From Candidatus Nitrosotenuis uzonensis (lineage in GTDB: Archaea; Thermoproteota; Nitrososphaeria; Nitrososphaerales; Nitrosopumilaceae): 64,000 nt of DNA. Under the pieces are notes generated by a model. It saw only the letters and a list, made by a program, of their open reading frames with translations. It was not told where the DNA came from and made no database searches. Location of the stretch: the NCBI RefSeq assembly GCF_000723185.1, contig NZ_CBTY010000006.1, positions 186,001 to 250,000 on the forward strand, written 5' to 3'. Of this stretch, positions 3,950-7,903 are shown in pieces (positions within the stretch are counted from its first letter, which is position 1; every line of letters starts with the position of its first letter). The position numbers and the translations under genes are program-made.

Positions 3950-4493
3950 TGTATTTTTTGCATCATCGAACAGGCACAAATATGCTGAGGTAAGGGACAT
4001 TCTGGAAAAATTCCAGATAAGAGCTGGTTTTTTTAAATTCAATCCTGTTGAGATACAATCAGATTCTATATCTGATATAGCAAGACAAAAGGTCATTGAC
4101 GCATATGAAAAATGCAAAATGCCGGTAATAGTGGAGGATGTGGGCCTCTACATAACATCGCTTAATGGGTTTCCGGGACCGTACTCGTCATTCGTGTTCA
4201 AGACGATAGGTAACAAAGGGATAGTGAGATTGTTGGGAAAAAATCGCAATGCCGAATTTCTCTCCGTCGTTGCATTTTATGATGGCAAAAAAAGACCAAG
4301 GCTCTTTGAGGGGAGGGTCCGCGGAAAAATAGCAAAAAGACTGGAACCTGGAGGATGGGGGTATGATCCGATCTTTATTCCTCGGGGAAAAGACAAGGCA
4401 TATGCACAGCTTGATGACAAAAATTCTGTATCGCACAGGTATAAAGCGCTTGCAAAATTTGCTACCTATATGCTGCAATCCAGCGATCGATAG
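3933..4493 (+). CDS. XTP/dITP pyrophosphatase (Ham1/RdgB family)
   Basis: A 186-residue house-cleaning nucleotidase that hydrolyses non-canonical purine triphosphates such as XTP and dITP. The N-terminal FFASSNRHKYAEV is the family's substrate-binding signature (SGNxxKxxE type), followed by VEDVGLYI with the catalytic acid pair, and near the C-terminus WGYDPIFIP and SHRYKAL. ATG 3933 is preferred; upstream TTG (3915) and GTG (3924) are in frame. It overlaps the bud32 end, so it belongs to the same transcript, and converges on taw1 with a 32-bp 3' overlap. Confidence 0.92.
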   Translation: MRRSYDVFFASSNRHKYAEVRDILEKFQIRAGFFKFNPVEIQSDSISDIARQKVIDAYEKCKMPVIVEDVGLYITSLNGFPGPYSSFVFKTIGNKGIVRLLGKNRNAEFLSVVAFYDGKKRPRLFEGRVRGKIAKRLEPGGWGYDPIFIPRGKDKAYAQLDDKNSVSHRYKALAKFATYMLQSSDR

Positions 4494-5478
4494 GCTTTTG
4501 CTGATTCTGCAACACTACTATTCTTGAGGACTCGCTATCATCCATTATGGAATAGACACCGCTCTTTTTTGCAAGCTCTGTTGCAAAATGCTGGACCTCT
4601 GCAAACTCTAGCATGTTGGTCCTCTCAAGTCTGTTTGTGGACCTACCAATGTGCATGTATGATTTTATCTCGATAAAATGTATGCCGGAGTTTTTTATCA
4701 TACTGGCAAATGCTTCGATATCCTGCAAAGAATTGTTGTAATCTCTGATAAGTGTCATGCGCAAGACTGTCCGTGTGTTAAGATTTGACATTATCTGCAG
4801 AGTATTATGCCATCTCTCCCAAGAGTCGGTGTATCTTGGTTTGTTTATTCTCATAAATGATTCCCGATCCGCTGCGTTTGTAGAAAGGTAAAGCTGGGTT
4901 GGAAGCGCGTCCTCATCAACAAGTCTTTGTATCATGTGGGGTTCCTGTCCGTTTGTCACAAGGAATACTGATTTTGTTGCAGGCAGAGATTTGAGGTATC
5001 TTATCAGGGCTGGAAGCTTGGGATACATCGTTGGCTCTCCTGAAAGTGAGATTGCATAGTGGCTTGGCATAAGTGACTCGTCAAGCTTTTTTCTGTCTGA
5101 CTTTGGGTCGCCATAGTGTCCCATGATCAGCTTTCTTCGCTCTTCCATAAGCTTATCTAACATCTGCTTTGGCTCAGCAACCTTTCCGGGATCCATCTGG
5201 AGCGAGTCATAAAACTCCATAGGGCGCCAACAGTAAACGCATCTGTTCTCACAATGCATTCCTGCAGGGGAGAACTCCATGCACTGGTGGGTCGATATGC
5301 CATAGAATTTGTGCTTGTAGCATCCCACGTCACCCTTGAAAGACTTTTTTGTCCAGTGACACAGCTCCACTGTTGCATGGTCTGCTACGCCATACTTGGC
5401 TTTTTTTAGCTGTTTCACTATTGAAGGTCTTATCTGAATTAGATCGTCCTGCTCTACAAACTCTCCTGAACAGCTCAA
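4462..5478 (-). CDS. taw1: tRNA 4-demethylwyosine synthase (Taw1/TYW1)
   Basis: A 338-residue radical SAM enzyme that makes the tricyclic core of wyosine at G37 of tRNA-Phe. The six cysteines have the exact Taw1 spacing C-x12-C-x12-C-x9-C-x3-C-x2-C: three for the auxiliary cluster and the last three (CENRCVYC) for the radical SAM [4Fe-4S] cluster. SLSGEPTMYP and IEIKSYMHIG are further family motifs. The start is TTG at 5478; no better ATG exists upstream before a stop at 5530-5532. It is transcribed away from the structured RNA at 5649. Confidence 0.95.
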   Translation of the reverse strand: MSCSGEFVEQDDLIQIRPSIVKQLKKAKYGVADHATVELCHWTKKSFKGDVGCYKHKFYGISTHQCMEFSPAGMHCENRCVYCWRPMEFYDSLQMDPGKVAEPKQMLDKLMEERRKLIMGHYGDPKSDRKKLDESLMPSHYAISLSGEPTMYPKLPALIRYLKSLPATKSVFLVTNGQEPHMIQRLVDEDALPTQLYLSTNAADRESFMRINKPRYTDSWERWHNTLQIMSNLNTRTVLRMTLIRDYNNSLQDIEAFASMIKNSGIHFIEIKSYMHIGRSTNRLERTNMLEFAEVQHFATELAKKSGVYSIMDDSESSRIVVLQNQQKPIDRWIAAYR

Positions 5479-5582
5479 ACTGGAATTGATTGCATTTTGT
5501 GCAATATCAAATCTTCTTTGGTGATCGTATTATGAAATTATTACAATATGTATGTTTATTTTGGAAAATAATTTGAACTAAA

Positions 5583-5597
5583 TTTTAAATATTATAA
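5583..5597 (+). promoter_or_regulatory. TATA-rich promoter region before the structured RNA
   Basis: The run TTTTAAATATTATAA matches archaeal TATA elements. A start site about 25 bp downstream would begin a transcript near 5620, some 29 nt ahead of the first helix at 5649. The sequence is nearly symmetric, so it could also serve taw1 on the other strand. Confidence 0.4.
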
Positions 5598-5648
5598 TTT
5601 CCTATGATGTTTAATGCGGATAGTTGTAATCTATAACAAATAATCCGC

Positions 5649-5742
5649 GCGTGGCCTAGCAGAACTGCAAGGTGAGCCATGAACGCACTGGCGTTATGGC
5701 ATCGAGAGGTGTTCTCTCAATGTTCTGCGCTTGAGGCCACGC
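5649..5742 (+). ncRNA. Unidentified structured RNA, three-way junction on a two-part stem
   Basis: The sequence folds without mismatches into four helices. P1 is 9 bp (5649-5657 with 5734-5742), P2 is 7 bp (5659-5665 with 5722-5728), P3 is an extended hairpin (5676-5680 with 5696-5700, then after one bulged G 5682-5686 with 5691-5695, loop ACTG), and P4 is a 5-bp hairpin (5704-5708 with 5714-5718, loop GTGTT). P2, P3 and P4 meet at a junction containing TGCAAGGTGA. The element is GC-rich in an AT-rich gap. It is not a tRNA (no T-loop) and I do not recognise it as 5S, SRP, RNase P or a riboswitch class I know. Strand is uncertain; corA downstream has its own TATA box, which favours a free-standing RNA over a leader. 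Confidence 0.6.
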
Positions 5743-5810
5743 CCAAATTTTCATGATAAAAAAACTCACTGATTCTGTAAATGGGGACATGCCCAAGACG
5801 CAATCAAAAA

Positions 5811-5820
5811 TTTAAATTTA
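5811..5820 (+). promoter_or_regulatory. TATA box of corA
   Basis: TTTAAATTTA lies 23-32 bp before the corA ATG at 5843, the usual spacing for a leaderless archaeal transcript. It places transcription start at or next to the ATG, so the upstream RNA element is unlikely to be part of the corA mRNA. Confidence 0.6.
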
Positions 5821-5842
5821 TTGTCACAGTCTGGAAGCTGCA

Positions 5843-6865
5843 ATGAAAAAAGGTACGATCATATCAAGACTTCCACATCTGAGAAGGCATCAACAACAGG
5901 ATGTGCAGGTACCAAGCCATATTGAGACAATACAGGGAAATGGATTTTCTTGGACCGACATTCTCAATCCGACACGCGCTGAAATTGACAAACTAGGCCA
6001 GATGTATGATTTTAACACCCTTAATCTGGATGACTCGATATCGAAGATACAGCTTGCTAAAATTGACAACTATGATGATCACTCGTTTATAATATTGCAT
6101 TTTCCTCCCATGATAATTAAAAAAGGCATGCCACGATTTTCCCAGCTATCTGTATTCATAGGTAAAGATTTTCTTGTCACCATACATAACGGCGACTTAA
6201 AGCCGCTAGTAGACATGTTCTTGCAGTGCAAGGAAAACCAGCAACGACGCGTTGAGCTACTCTCAAAGTCGCCCGGATTCCTATTGCATAAAATCATTGA
6301 TGCACTTGTAGATGATCTGTTGCATACGTTGCGCAGAATTGTGGCTAATCTGGATGAAATTGAAGATGATGTGTTTGACGAGAACAAGTCAACACCAAAA
6401 AAGATCTCGCTTTTGAGGCGTGAGATCACAATACTTAGGAGGATAGTGAACCCGCTGCGCAAGATTGTACTGGAAACATCAAAGAGTACGCAGAGATTCT
6501 CAAGCCCTGACGATGATCTTGTCATACATTTTGATGATGTCATAGACCACATCGACAAGGTGGTTGAGACACTCGATGAGGCAAAAGAAACGATGGAGAT
6601 CTACAAGGATACAGACTTTATGCTCTCAACTGAAAAGTCAAACAAGATACTTGCAACTCTTACCATCATATTCACCCTGTCTATTCCAGCAACCGTGATA
6701 GGCGCAATGTATGGGATGAATGTGAATCTGCCTGGGGGGATAGAAACAGGCGCGTGGCTATTCCTTGGAGAATATACTACCTTTATTGTGATGTTAATTC
6801 TATCTATAATACCGTCAATTCTGATGTTTCTGTGGTTCTACAGGCGTGAATGGCTAGTGTATTAG
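5843..6865 (+). CDS. corA: CorA-family divalent cation transporter
   Basis: A 340-residue CorA-type magnesium (or cobalt) channel. The signature YGMN is present, with GMN at residues 291-293, at the end of the first of two C-terminal transmembrane helices; the second helix is about residues 313-333 and ends in basic residues facing the cytoplasm. The N-terminal ~240 residues are the soluble funnel with long charged helices (about 150-240). The ATG at 5843 follows a well-spaced TATA box. The gene is monocistronic; its stop abuts the microprotein on the opposite strand. Confidence 0.95.
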   Translation: MKKGTIISRLPHLRRHQQQDVQVPSHIETIQGNGFSWTDILNPTRAEIDKLGQMYDFNTLNLDDSISKIQLAKIDNYDDHSFIILHFPPMIIKKGMPRFSQLSVFIGKDFLVTIHNGDLKPLVDMFLQCKENQQRRVELLSKSPGFLLHKIIDALVDDLLHTLRRIVANLDEIEDDVFDENKSTPKKISLLRREITILRRIVNPLRKIVLETSKSTQRFSSPDDDLVIHFDDVIDHIDKVVETLDEAKETMEIYKDTDFMLSTEKSNKILATLTIIFTLSIPATVIGAMYGMNVNLPGGIETGAWLFLGEYTTFIVMLILSIIPSILMFLWFYRREWLVY

Positions 6866-6953: not shown

Positions 6954-7045
6954 TTACTCGGTTTTTTTATATGGAATAATTAAATTTGTCCCTGATTTTC
7001 GGTCGTAGTTACGTTAATACCCCTTTTGTGGGGAGTAGTGCTTGC

Positions 7046-7118
7046 GGCCTTCGTAGTACAGTGGCTAGTATAGGGGACTGTGGATCCCCGGACAGGGGTT
7101 CGATTCCCCTCGAGGGCC
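7046..7118 (+). tRNA. tRNA-His (anticodon GTG)
   Basis: A full cloverleaf is visible: 7-bp acceptor (7047-7053 with 7111-7117, one G-U), D-stem GTAC/GTAT, a 5-bp anticodon stem GGGGA/TCCCC with loop CTGTGGA (anticodon GTG), and T-stem AGGGG/CCCCT with loop TTCGATT. G at 7046 opposite C at 7118 gives the extra G-1:C73 pair typical of histidine tRNA. CCA is not encoded. The 3' end of this gene is the attachment site of the genomic island to the right. Confidence 0.95.
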
Positions 7119-7194
7119 TACAATCCTTGATTTCGGTCCCCAAAGGTCGTCGACCTTATACTATTGAAAGGACAATGGACCTGTACAACTACAA
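7105..7194 (+). repeat. Left copy of the 90-bp att-type direct repeat
   Basis: This copy covers the last 14 bp of tRNA-His, a 56-bp spacer and the first 20 bp of the integrase gene. It matches 9731-9820 at 85 of 90 positions with no gaps. It marks the left boundary of the integrated element. Confidence 0.85.
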
Positions 7195-7903
7195 GGAAAG
7201 AGTAGGTAACGCAATCATACGATACCAGCAGAGCGACGACTACAACACGAAAAAAGTAGTCGAATTTACGAACAAACTGATAGCAGAAAATCTCTCCTAC
7301 GCCAGAATCTGGAAGTACATCTACAGTCTCCGCGAAATTGACAAGAGACTCGGCGGCAAGAGTTTTGATAGTGTAACAAAACGCGACATCGAGAACCTCA
7401 TCTCGGAGCTCAACACTTCGCACTACAGCGAGTGGACAAAGCACAGCTACCGGGTCGTAATCAAGAGGTTCTGGAAGTGGCTCAAGGGCGACGAGAACTA
7501 TCCCACCGAAGTGAAATGGATCAAGGCCTCCTGCAAGCAGAGAAACAAAATCGCAATCAGGCCGGAGGACGTTCTCACATCTGACGAGATTCGTGTGATG
7601 GTGGAGAACTGTGCCACCGTCAGGGACAAGGCGATGCTCCTGACTTTGTTCGAGTCTGGCATGAGACCCGGCGAGCTTCTGACGATGCGGATAAGGAATG
7701 TGAATTTCGACGAGCAAGGCGCATACATCTCTGCTACTGGAAAGACAGGGGACAAGGTGGTCTTCGTCTATCTCTCGGCACCTCTGTTGAGCCAGTGGAT
7801 TTCACAGCATCCACAGAACAGCGACCCAGATTCATTTCTGTGGATAAGCCTGAACCAGAGAAACTACCTCTCTTCCAATATCACTTGCAAAAGACATCTT
7901 TGA
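7175..7903 (+). pseudogene. Tyrosine recombinase/integrase lacking its catalytic C-terminus
   Basis: A 242-residue reading frame from ATG 7175. Residues ~1-120 look like the SAM-like core-binding domain, and ESGMRPGELL provides the first catalytic arginine; the conserved beta-hairpin lysine is in ATGKTGDKV. It stops after SSNITCKRHL, before the HxxR and tyrosine motifs. In another frame just downstream (about 7880-7983) KYRRAGVKTIKKEL resembles the segment that normally precedes PHLFRH, so a frameshift and then a deletion are likely. The start lies 57 bp after tRNA-His, within the left repeat. It is predicted to be inactive. Confidence 0.75.

Follow-up and report, generated by a model that had tools for sequence, protein, structure and literature searches.

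A conserved structured RNA gene in one family of ammonia-oxidizing archaea, with a predicted leaderless reading frame of fixed length

Introduction

Dual-function small RNAs such as SgrS/SgrT, RNAIII/hld and SR1/SR1P code for conserved peptides of more than nine residues, which are read from a leader. The trp, mgtL and corL attenuators have translated leader ORFs, and tmRNA combines a reading frame of about ten codons with a structured domain. Among archaea, ribosome occupancy has been measured for ribosome-associated small RNAs of Haloferax volcanii, mostly without evidence of a coded protein (PMC12482152), and the Tan1 ncRNA of marine group II Euryarchaeota has a length of 229 nt (PMC5069720).

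Here, we report an element located 5′ of corA in the window, i.e. the whole stretch of 64,000 nucleotides of DNA that was analysed. The element is a previously uncatalogued small RNA gene that is present in nearly every member of its family. The reading towards which we lean slightly is that of a translation-gated structured RNA, comprising a leaderless frame of 8–9 codons with a hairpin (P0) inside it, followed by a three-way junction formed by P1–P4 and by a U-tract.

Extent, structure and strand of the RNA gene

The initial annotation placed a structured RNA at 5649–5742. These coordinates describe the core domain correctly; they are too short at the 5′ side, where 5614–5648 (the mini-ORF and P0) was missed, because the predicted start, 29 nt downstream of the TATA box, is at 5614. 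The features of the window copy are as follows.

About 5614 to 5752, + strand: candidate RNA gene of about 140 nt, longer than the 5649–5742 first proposed
5585 to 5591, + strand: TATA box TTAAATA, 29 nt 5′ of the predicted start; kept in family copies at 27–30 nt
5614 to 5643, + strand: predicted leaderless mini-ORF, ATG to TAA, 9 codons (MRIVVIYNK*); frame length kept across family copies
5616 to 5648, + strand: P0 hairpin from folding, GCGGAU (5616–5621) with AUCCGC (5643–5648) in the window copy; overlaps the mini-ORF
5649 to 5657, + strand: 5′ strand of P1, 9 bp with 5734–5742; 99.0% of cells paired, both-side changes in 7/9 pairs
5659 to 5665, + strand: 5′ strand of P2, 7 bp with 5722–5728; 95.5% of cells paired, both-side changes in 7/7 pairs
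About 5674 to 5703, + strand: P3, a variable, interrupted hairpin; both-side changes in 7/7 pairs of model helices 3 and 4
5704 to 5718, + strand: P4 hairpin GAGAG-GUGUU-CUCUC, strands 5704–5708 and 5714–5718; 96.8% of cells paired
5722 to 5728, + strand: 3′ strand of P2, paired with 5659–5665 in the alignments
5734 to 5742, + strand: 3′ strand of P1, paired with 5649–5657 in the alignments
5748 to 5751, + strand: U-tract 3′ of P1, a probable termination region judged from the T-rich tails of copies, weak in the window copy

The helices at 5649–5742 are present as first described (P1 of 9 bp, P2 of 7 bp, an interrupted P3, and P4), and P4 is the best conserved part of the core, with hardly any variation in alignments A1 and A3. 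Downstream of P1, 134/157 copies have a T-rich tail, compared with 24/157 at a control position 60 nt further downstream. The compensatory changes in relatives that the initial annotation had named as a check are strong. As shown by alignment A2, 96.9% of the cells are paired and both-side changes occur in 26/28 pairs, and in alignment A4, which consists of loci outside the training set of covariance model R2 yet partly of the same genes as A2, 97.4% of the cells are paired and 90 are both-side cells, where 15.8 would be expected, both alignments having been fitted to the structure model, which flatters these pair counts. The covariation score of A2 is 0.366, against 0.176 for shuffled and at most 0.075 for slid alignments, with 0/500 shuffles scoring as high; the MAFFT-only alignment A1 contains both-side changes in 7/28 pairs.

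A stretch of 113 nt folds on the + strand with a minimum free energy of −46.6 kcal/mol (z = −4.19; 0/200 shuffles as stable), whereas the fold of the − strand is more stable (−54.6, z = −6.32). The + strand was nevertheless chosen because of the asymmetry of the wobble pairs, those readable on + only outnumbering those readable on − only by 136:25 and 107:4 in two comparisons, and because of the conservation of the promoter; on the same grounds an RNA from the reverse strand was rejected despite its lower energy. Structure and strand are thus drawn from comparison between copies, according to which the element almost certainly represents a conserved + strand RNA family.

Distribution of the RNA family

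By BLASTN, the genome of the window has one further copy, 79% identical, and almost every genome of the genus has clear copies, mostly two apiece. Two covariance models were built, R1 on 27 copies (alignment A1) and R2 on 91 divergent matches. With these models all 17/17 genomes of the genus were matched, with 1–4 copies each, and across the family R1 matched 171/200 genomes with 1–5 matches per genome; the family members without a match include the small-genome genus g5 and the genera g8, g11 and g14. When R2 was run on a sample of the order (201 genomes), 52 were matched, all from the same family and corresponding to 52/52 of its members, with no match in the 149 genomes from other families. 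The phylum sample gave the same picture: 36/250 genomes were matched, all in the family (36/36 of its members), with no match in 214 genomes from other families. In the class sample 160/300 genomes were matched, and all of the matches listed fall within the family. When 84,980 species were scanned for an exact motif, 95 stretches were found, and the 80 matches listed are thaumarchaeal/nitrososphaerotal or unnamed archaeal, mostly from Nitrosopumilus and Nitrosarchaeum. The element is accordingly taken as restricted to one archaeal family, which we take as Nitrosopumilaceae. A scan of viral contigs found no copy.

The initial annotation recognized no known RNA class and no tRNA features in the element, and the searches agree on both points. 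No Rfam 15 family reached its gathering threshold for the element, the only matches in the window being two tRNAs; at E-values of up to 10, the region 5500–5900 gave implausible weak matches and nothing credible. A search of 20 divergent loci returned a single tRNA and nothing else, and none of the box C/D or H/ACA guide-RNA families, as represented by Rfam models, exceeded threshold in the window or in these 20 loci. The only genes that ARAGORN called in the window were those for tRNA-His and tRNA-Leu, both elsewhere, and it placed no cloverleaf or tRNA-like domain in the element. No description of the element was found in the literature, of which coverage was partial, so that this lends weak support to novelty.

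Promoter and predicted leaderless reading frame

The TATA-like region that had been noted 52–66 bp upstream corresponds to TTAAATA at 5585–5591 and is conserved in relatives. Alignment of the flanks showed this conserved box and then conserved sequence from an ATG located 35 nt 5′ of the start first reported. In all copies whose 5′ end is included, the TATA box lies 27–30 nt, nearly always 28–29 nt, before an ATG, GTG or TTG codon, so that the transcript should begin at or next to the AUG and should be leaderless. The frame was measured in two sets of copies, in both of which the start codon was picked by its distance from the TATA box and frame length was ignored. In 88 distinct copies, the frame has 9 codons in 83, 8 in four and 12 in one, and the TATA-to-start distance is 29 nt in 69, 28 nt in 17, 30 nt in one and 27 nt in one. 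In 91 copies from other loci, a set that overlaps in part with the first (some of the genes are the same), the frame has 9 codons in 84 and 8 in seven, all start with ATG, and the distance is 29 nt in 87 and 28 nt in four. The start codons of the 88 copies are ATG (82), GTG (5) and TTG (1), with no CTG, and all three stop codons are in use (TAA 56, TAG 16 and TGA 16). The stop codon lies 3–4 nt from P1 in 142/157 copies, and while the frame varies in length by whole codons, the spacer outside it varies by single bases. At locus L152 (2001–2135), the sole copy found without a stop at codon 10 has CGA instead, and its frame runs for 12 codons to a stop within P1. Locus L155 (2001–2440) contains a tandem pair about 180 nt apart, in which one frame has 8 codons and the other 9.

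The statistics on unique ORFs (open-frame and substitution tests) were restricted to 9-codon frames. All 66/66 unique ORFs are free of internal stops in frame 0, whereas frame +1 has stops in 50 and frame +2 in 25; because the copies share ancestry, these counts are not independent events, the 66 ORFs forming 8 clusters at 70% single linkage. The frame is open in all 8 clusters, for which base shuffling gives a chance probability near 0.007.

The best surviving alternative, which we regard as rather unlikely, is an untranslated, structured small RNA acting in trans by antisense pairing or protein binding, in which the ATG, the stop and the spacing are by-products of the start-site sequence, P0 and the linker. 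It would account for the conservation of P0 inside the frame, where the mini-ORF region of unique copies folds better than shuffles (mean z −1.98, median −2.4), and for the absence of synonymous bias described below, and a purine followed by TG at the start might reflect a preference at the start site. Given the overlap of P0 with the mini-ORF, conservation of the ATG and stop could indeed stem in part from RNA structure or start-site sequence. It explains less well why all three stop codons are used with one exception in 88, why frame 0 is open in 66/66 while the other frames hold stops, why frame length shifts by whole codons only and why the starts include GTG and TTG but never CTG. The mini-ORF is likely to be translated.

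Genomic context

The window copy lies between a radical SAM/wyosine gene (4462–5478, −) and corA (5843–6865, +). As the initial annotation had noted, corA has a separate TATA box, the TATA-like AAATTTAAATTT near its start (approximately 5808–5819), and its transcript is probably leaderless too. The second copy in this genome is flanked by an SDR gene and by a convergent gene for a small secreted-type protein, which is followed by TFB. Other classes adjoin purP (DUF1246/DUF1297), sit between aroC and aroA on the opposite strand, or adjoin a Sir2 gene. The gene order at each locus is conserved across genera. Further on in the window, at 7046–7903, a tRNA-His is directly followed by an ORF (6986–7903, +) that is tyrosine recombinase-like by sequence, possibly the edge of a tRNA-integrated element.

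The copies of the aroC–aroA class (L151, L153, L156, L158, L160, L161, L164, L165 and L168–L170, near 2000) have a different P4, GUGAGGAG-AAUG-CUUUUCAC, and a long, fused P1. Amino-acid attenuation at these copies was considered and rejected, as they contain at most one Tyr/Phe codon and are antisense to the aro genes. At the Sir2/membrane-protein locus, the orientation of the element relative to both genes is opposite in L154/L157 compared with L162.

An element acting in cis on a neighbour, as a corA leader or Mg2+ sensor, or as an antisense RNA or terminator for the convergent gene, appears improbable. The window copy does lie 5′ of corA, and many copies end 10–80 nt from a convergent stop codon; however, corA is the neighbour in this genus only and carries its own TATA-like sequence, the loci vary (SDR/TFB, purP, aroC–aroA and Sir2), and genomes differ in the orientation of one arrangement. 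Because the next gene is convergent at most loci, the element is unlikely to act generally as a cis leader. The magnesium-responsive corA leader offered by the initial annotation consequently falls away, whereas its alternative of a free-standing structured RNA is borne out by the promoter and covariation, and by neighbours that differ with a downstream gene that is mostly convergent, which together indicate a free-standing gene.

Role of the frame and proposed mechanism

The codon-substitution test on unique ORFs gave no clear bias in frame 0, whether judged by synonymous changes or by BLOSUM, i.e. no sign of selection on the peptide: substitutions per codon position are 55.4/75.0/58.7, with no excess at the third position, and the synonymous fraction of frame 0 (0.146) lies between those of the other two frames (0.164 and 0.124). 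The peptides are diverse, for example MRKDINPID, MSLVVKSGD, MQKRVNYKP, MTFVVRAMD and VIVESLQMA. A dual-function RNA with the nine-residue peptide as its product (a signal, an inhibitor or a leader peptide) is therefore very doubtful: some classes do keep a recognizable peptide (MRKD.NP.., MPKDIIPID and MSLVVKSGD), but the peptides differ completely from class to class, there is no clear BLOSUM or synonymous signal, and no shared codon would mark amino-acid attenuation. Comparison of the copies indicates that the frame is conserved as a frame of set length and not as a peptide, which suggests that translation itself, rather than the peptide, matters. Least credible of all are an inverted repeat that is mobile or selfish and a fold that arose by chance: the 1–4 copies per genome would suit a repeat, but the locus gene order is conserved across genera, the restriction to the family is strict, viral contigs gave no match and covariation contradicts both.

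Returning to the translation-gated RNA, in which we infer both transcription and translation from sequence, the + strand would be transcribed from its own TATA box with the 5′ end at or next to the AUG, and the act of translation would be the signal. A ribosome initiating on the leaderless AUG would open P0. Once it reached the stop codon (codon 10), most of the 5′ strand of P1 would be covered by its leading edge and P1 would melt, whereas P1 would refold in RNA that is untranslated or has been vacated by the ribosome. The junction would in this way toggle between closed and open with ribosome traffic on leaderless mRNA. The folded domain probably acts in trans, or sets RNA stability or termination, and P4, with its near-invariant stem and loop, may be the likeliest contact site. 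Such a gate would require both the frame length and the stop-to-P1 distance to be constant, as they are among the copies. When nucleotides 1–39 were blocked and the RNA was refolded, P2–P4 were kept and about half of P1 was lost in 4/5 modelled copies; the blocked fold of the aro-locus type (L158) rearranges differently. The chances that translation gating is the function are about even. More tentatively, and with the balance somewhat against it, the element may be a stand-alone RNA device that needs translation of a frame whose length is fixed and whose peptide is arbitrary, the transit of the ribosome opening and closing the fold, and that serves as a sensor of leaderless translation.

Nearly all members of the family, which holds the main marine and freshwater ammonia oxidizers, carry this uncatalogued RNA gene, and a genome can have up to four copies. 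A conserved mini-ORF without a conserved peptide leads to a clear, testable prediction, namely that the passage of the ribosome is selected and not a product. If true, the element would represent a new mode of RNA control and might serve as a readout of leaderless translation in archaea, with the sensor sitting in the most abundant ammonia-oxidizing archaea.

Comparison with known systems

The attenuators resemble the element in that the position of a ribosome on a short ORF could remodel downstream helices. They differ from it in that the element is free-standing, usually without a co-directional downstream gene, and lacks conserved regulatory codons; the same-strand regulated gene that an attenuator would have downstream was not found, the downstream gene being convergent at most loci. 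With tmRNA the element shares a short frame joined to a structured domain, whereas ARAGORN found no tRNA-like domain in the window and the frame of the element opens with a start codon at the 5′ end. The dual-function small RNAs are similar in being short, independent transcripts with a small ORF and a structured part, features that are predicted for the element from its sequence, and the conserved TATA box and U-rich tail of the copies are consistent with a transcription unit with its own promoter; however, the substitution test in frame 0 gave no sign of a selected peptide, and the predicted frame is leaderless, 8–9 codons long and fixed in length, with a peptide that is not conserved. The H. 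volcanii small RNAs are also archaeal, from another group, and their occupancy was measured, whereas the element is known from sequence comparison (PMC12482152). Tan1, although euryarchaeal, 229 nt long and compared here by description only, is like the element an uncatalogued structured ncRNA of archaea from the marine plankton (PMC5069720).
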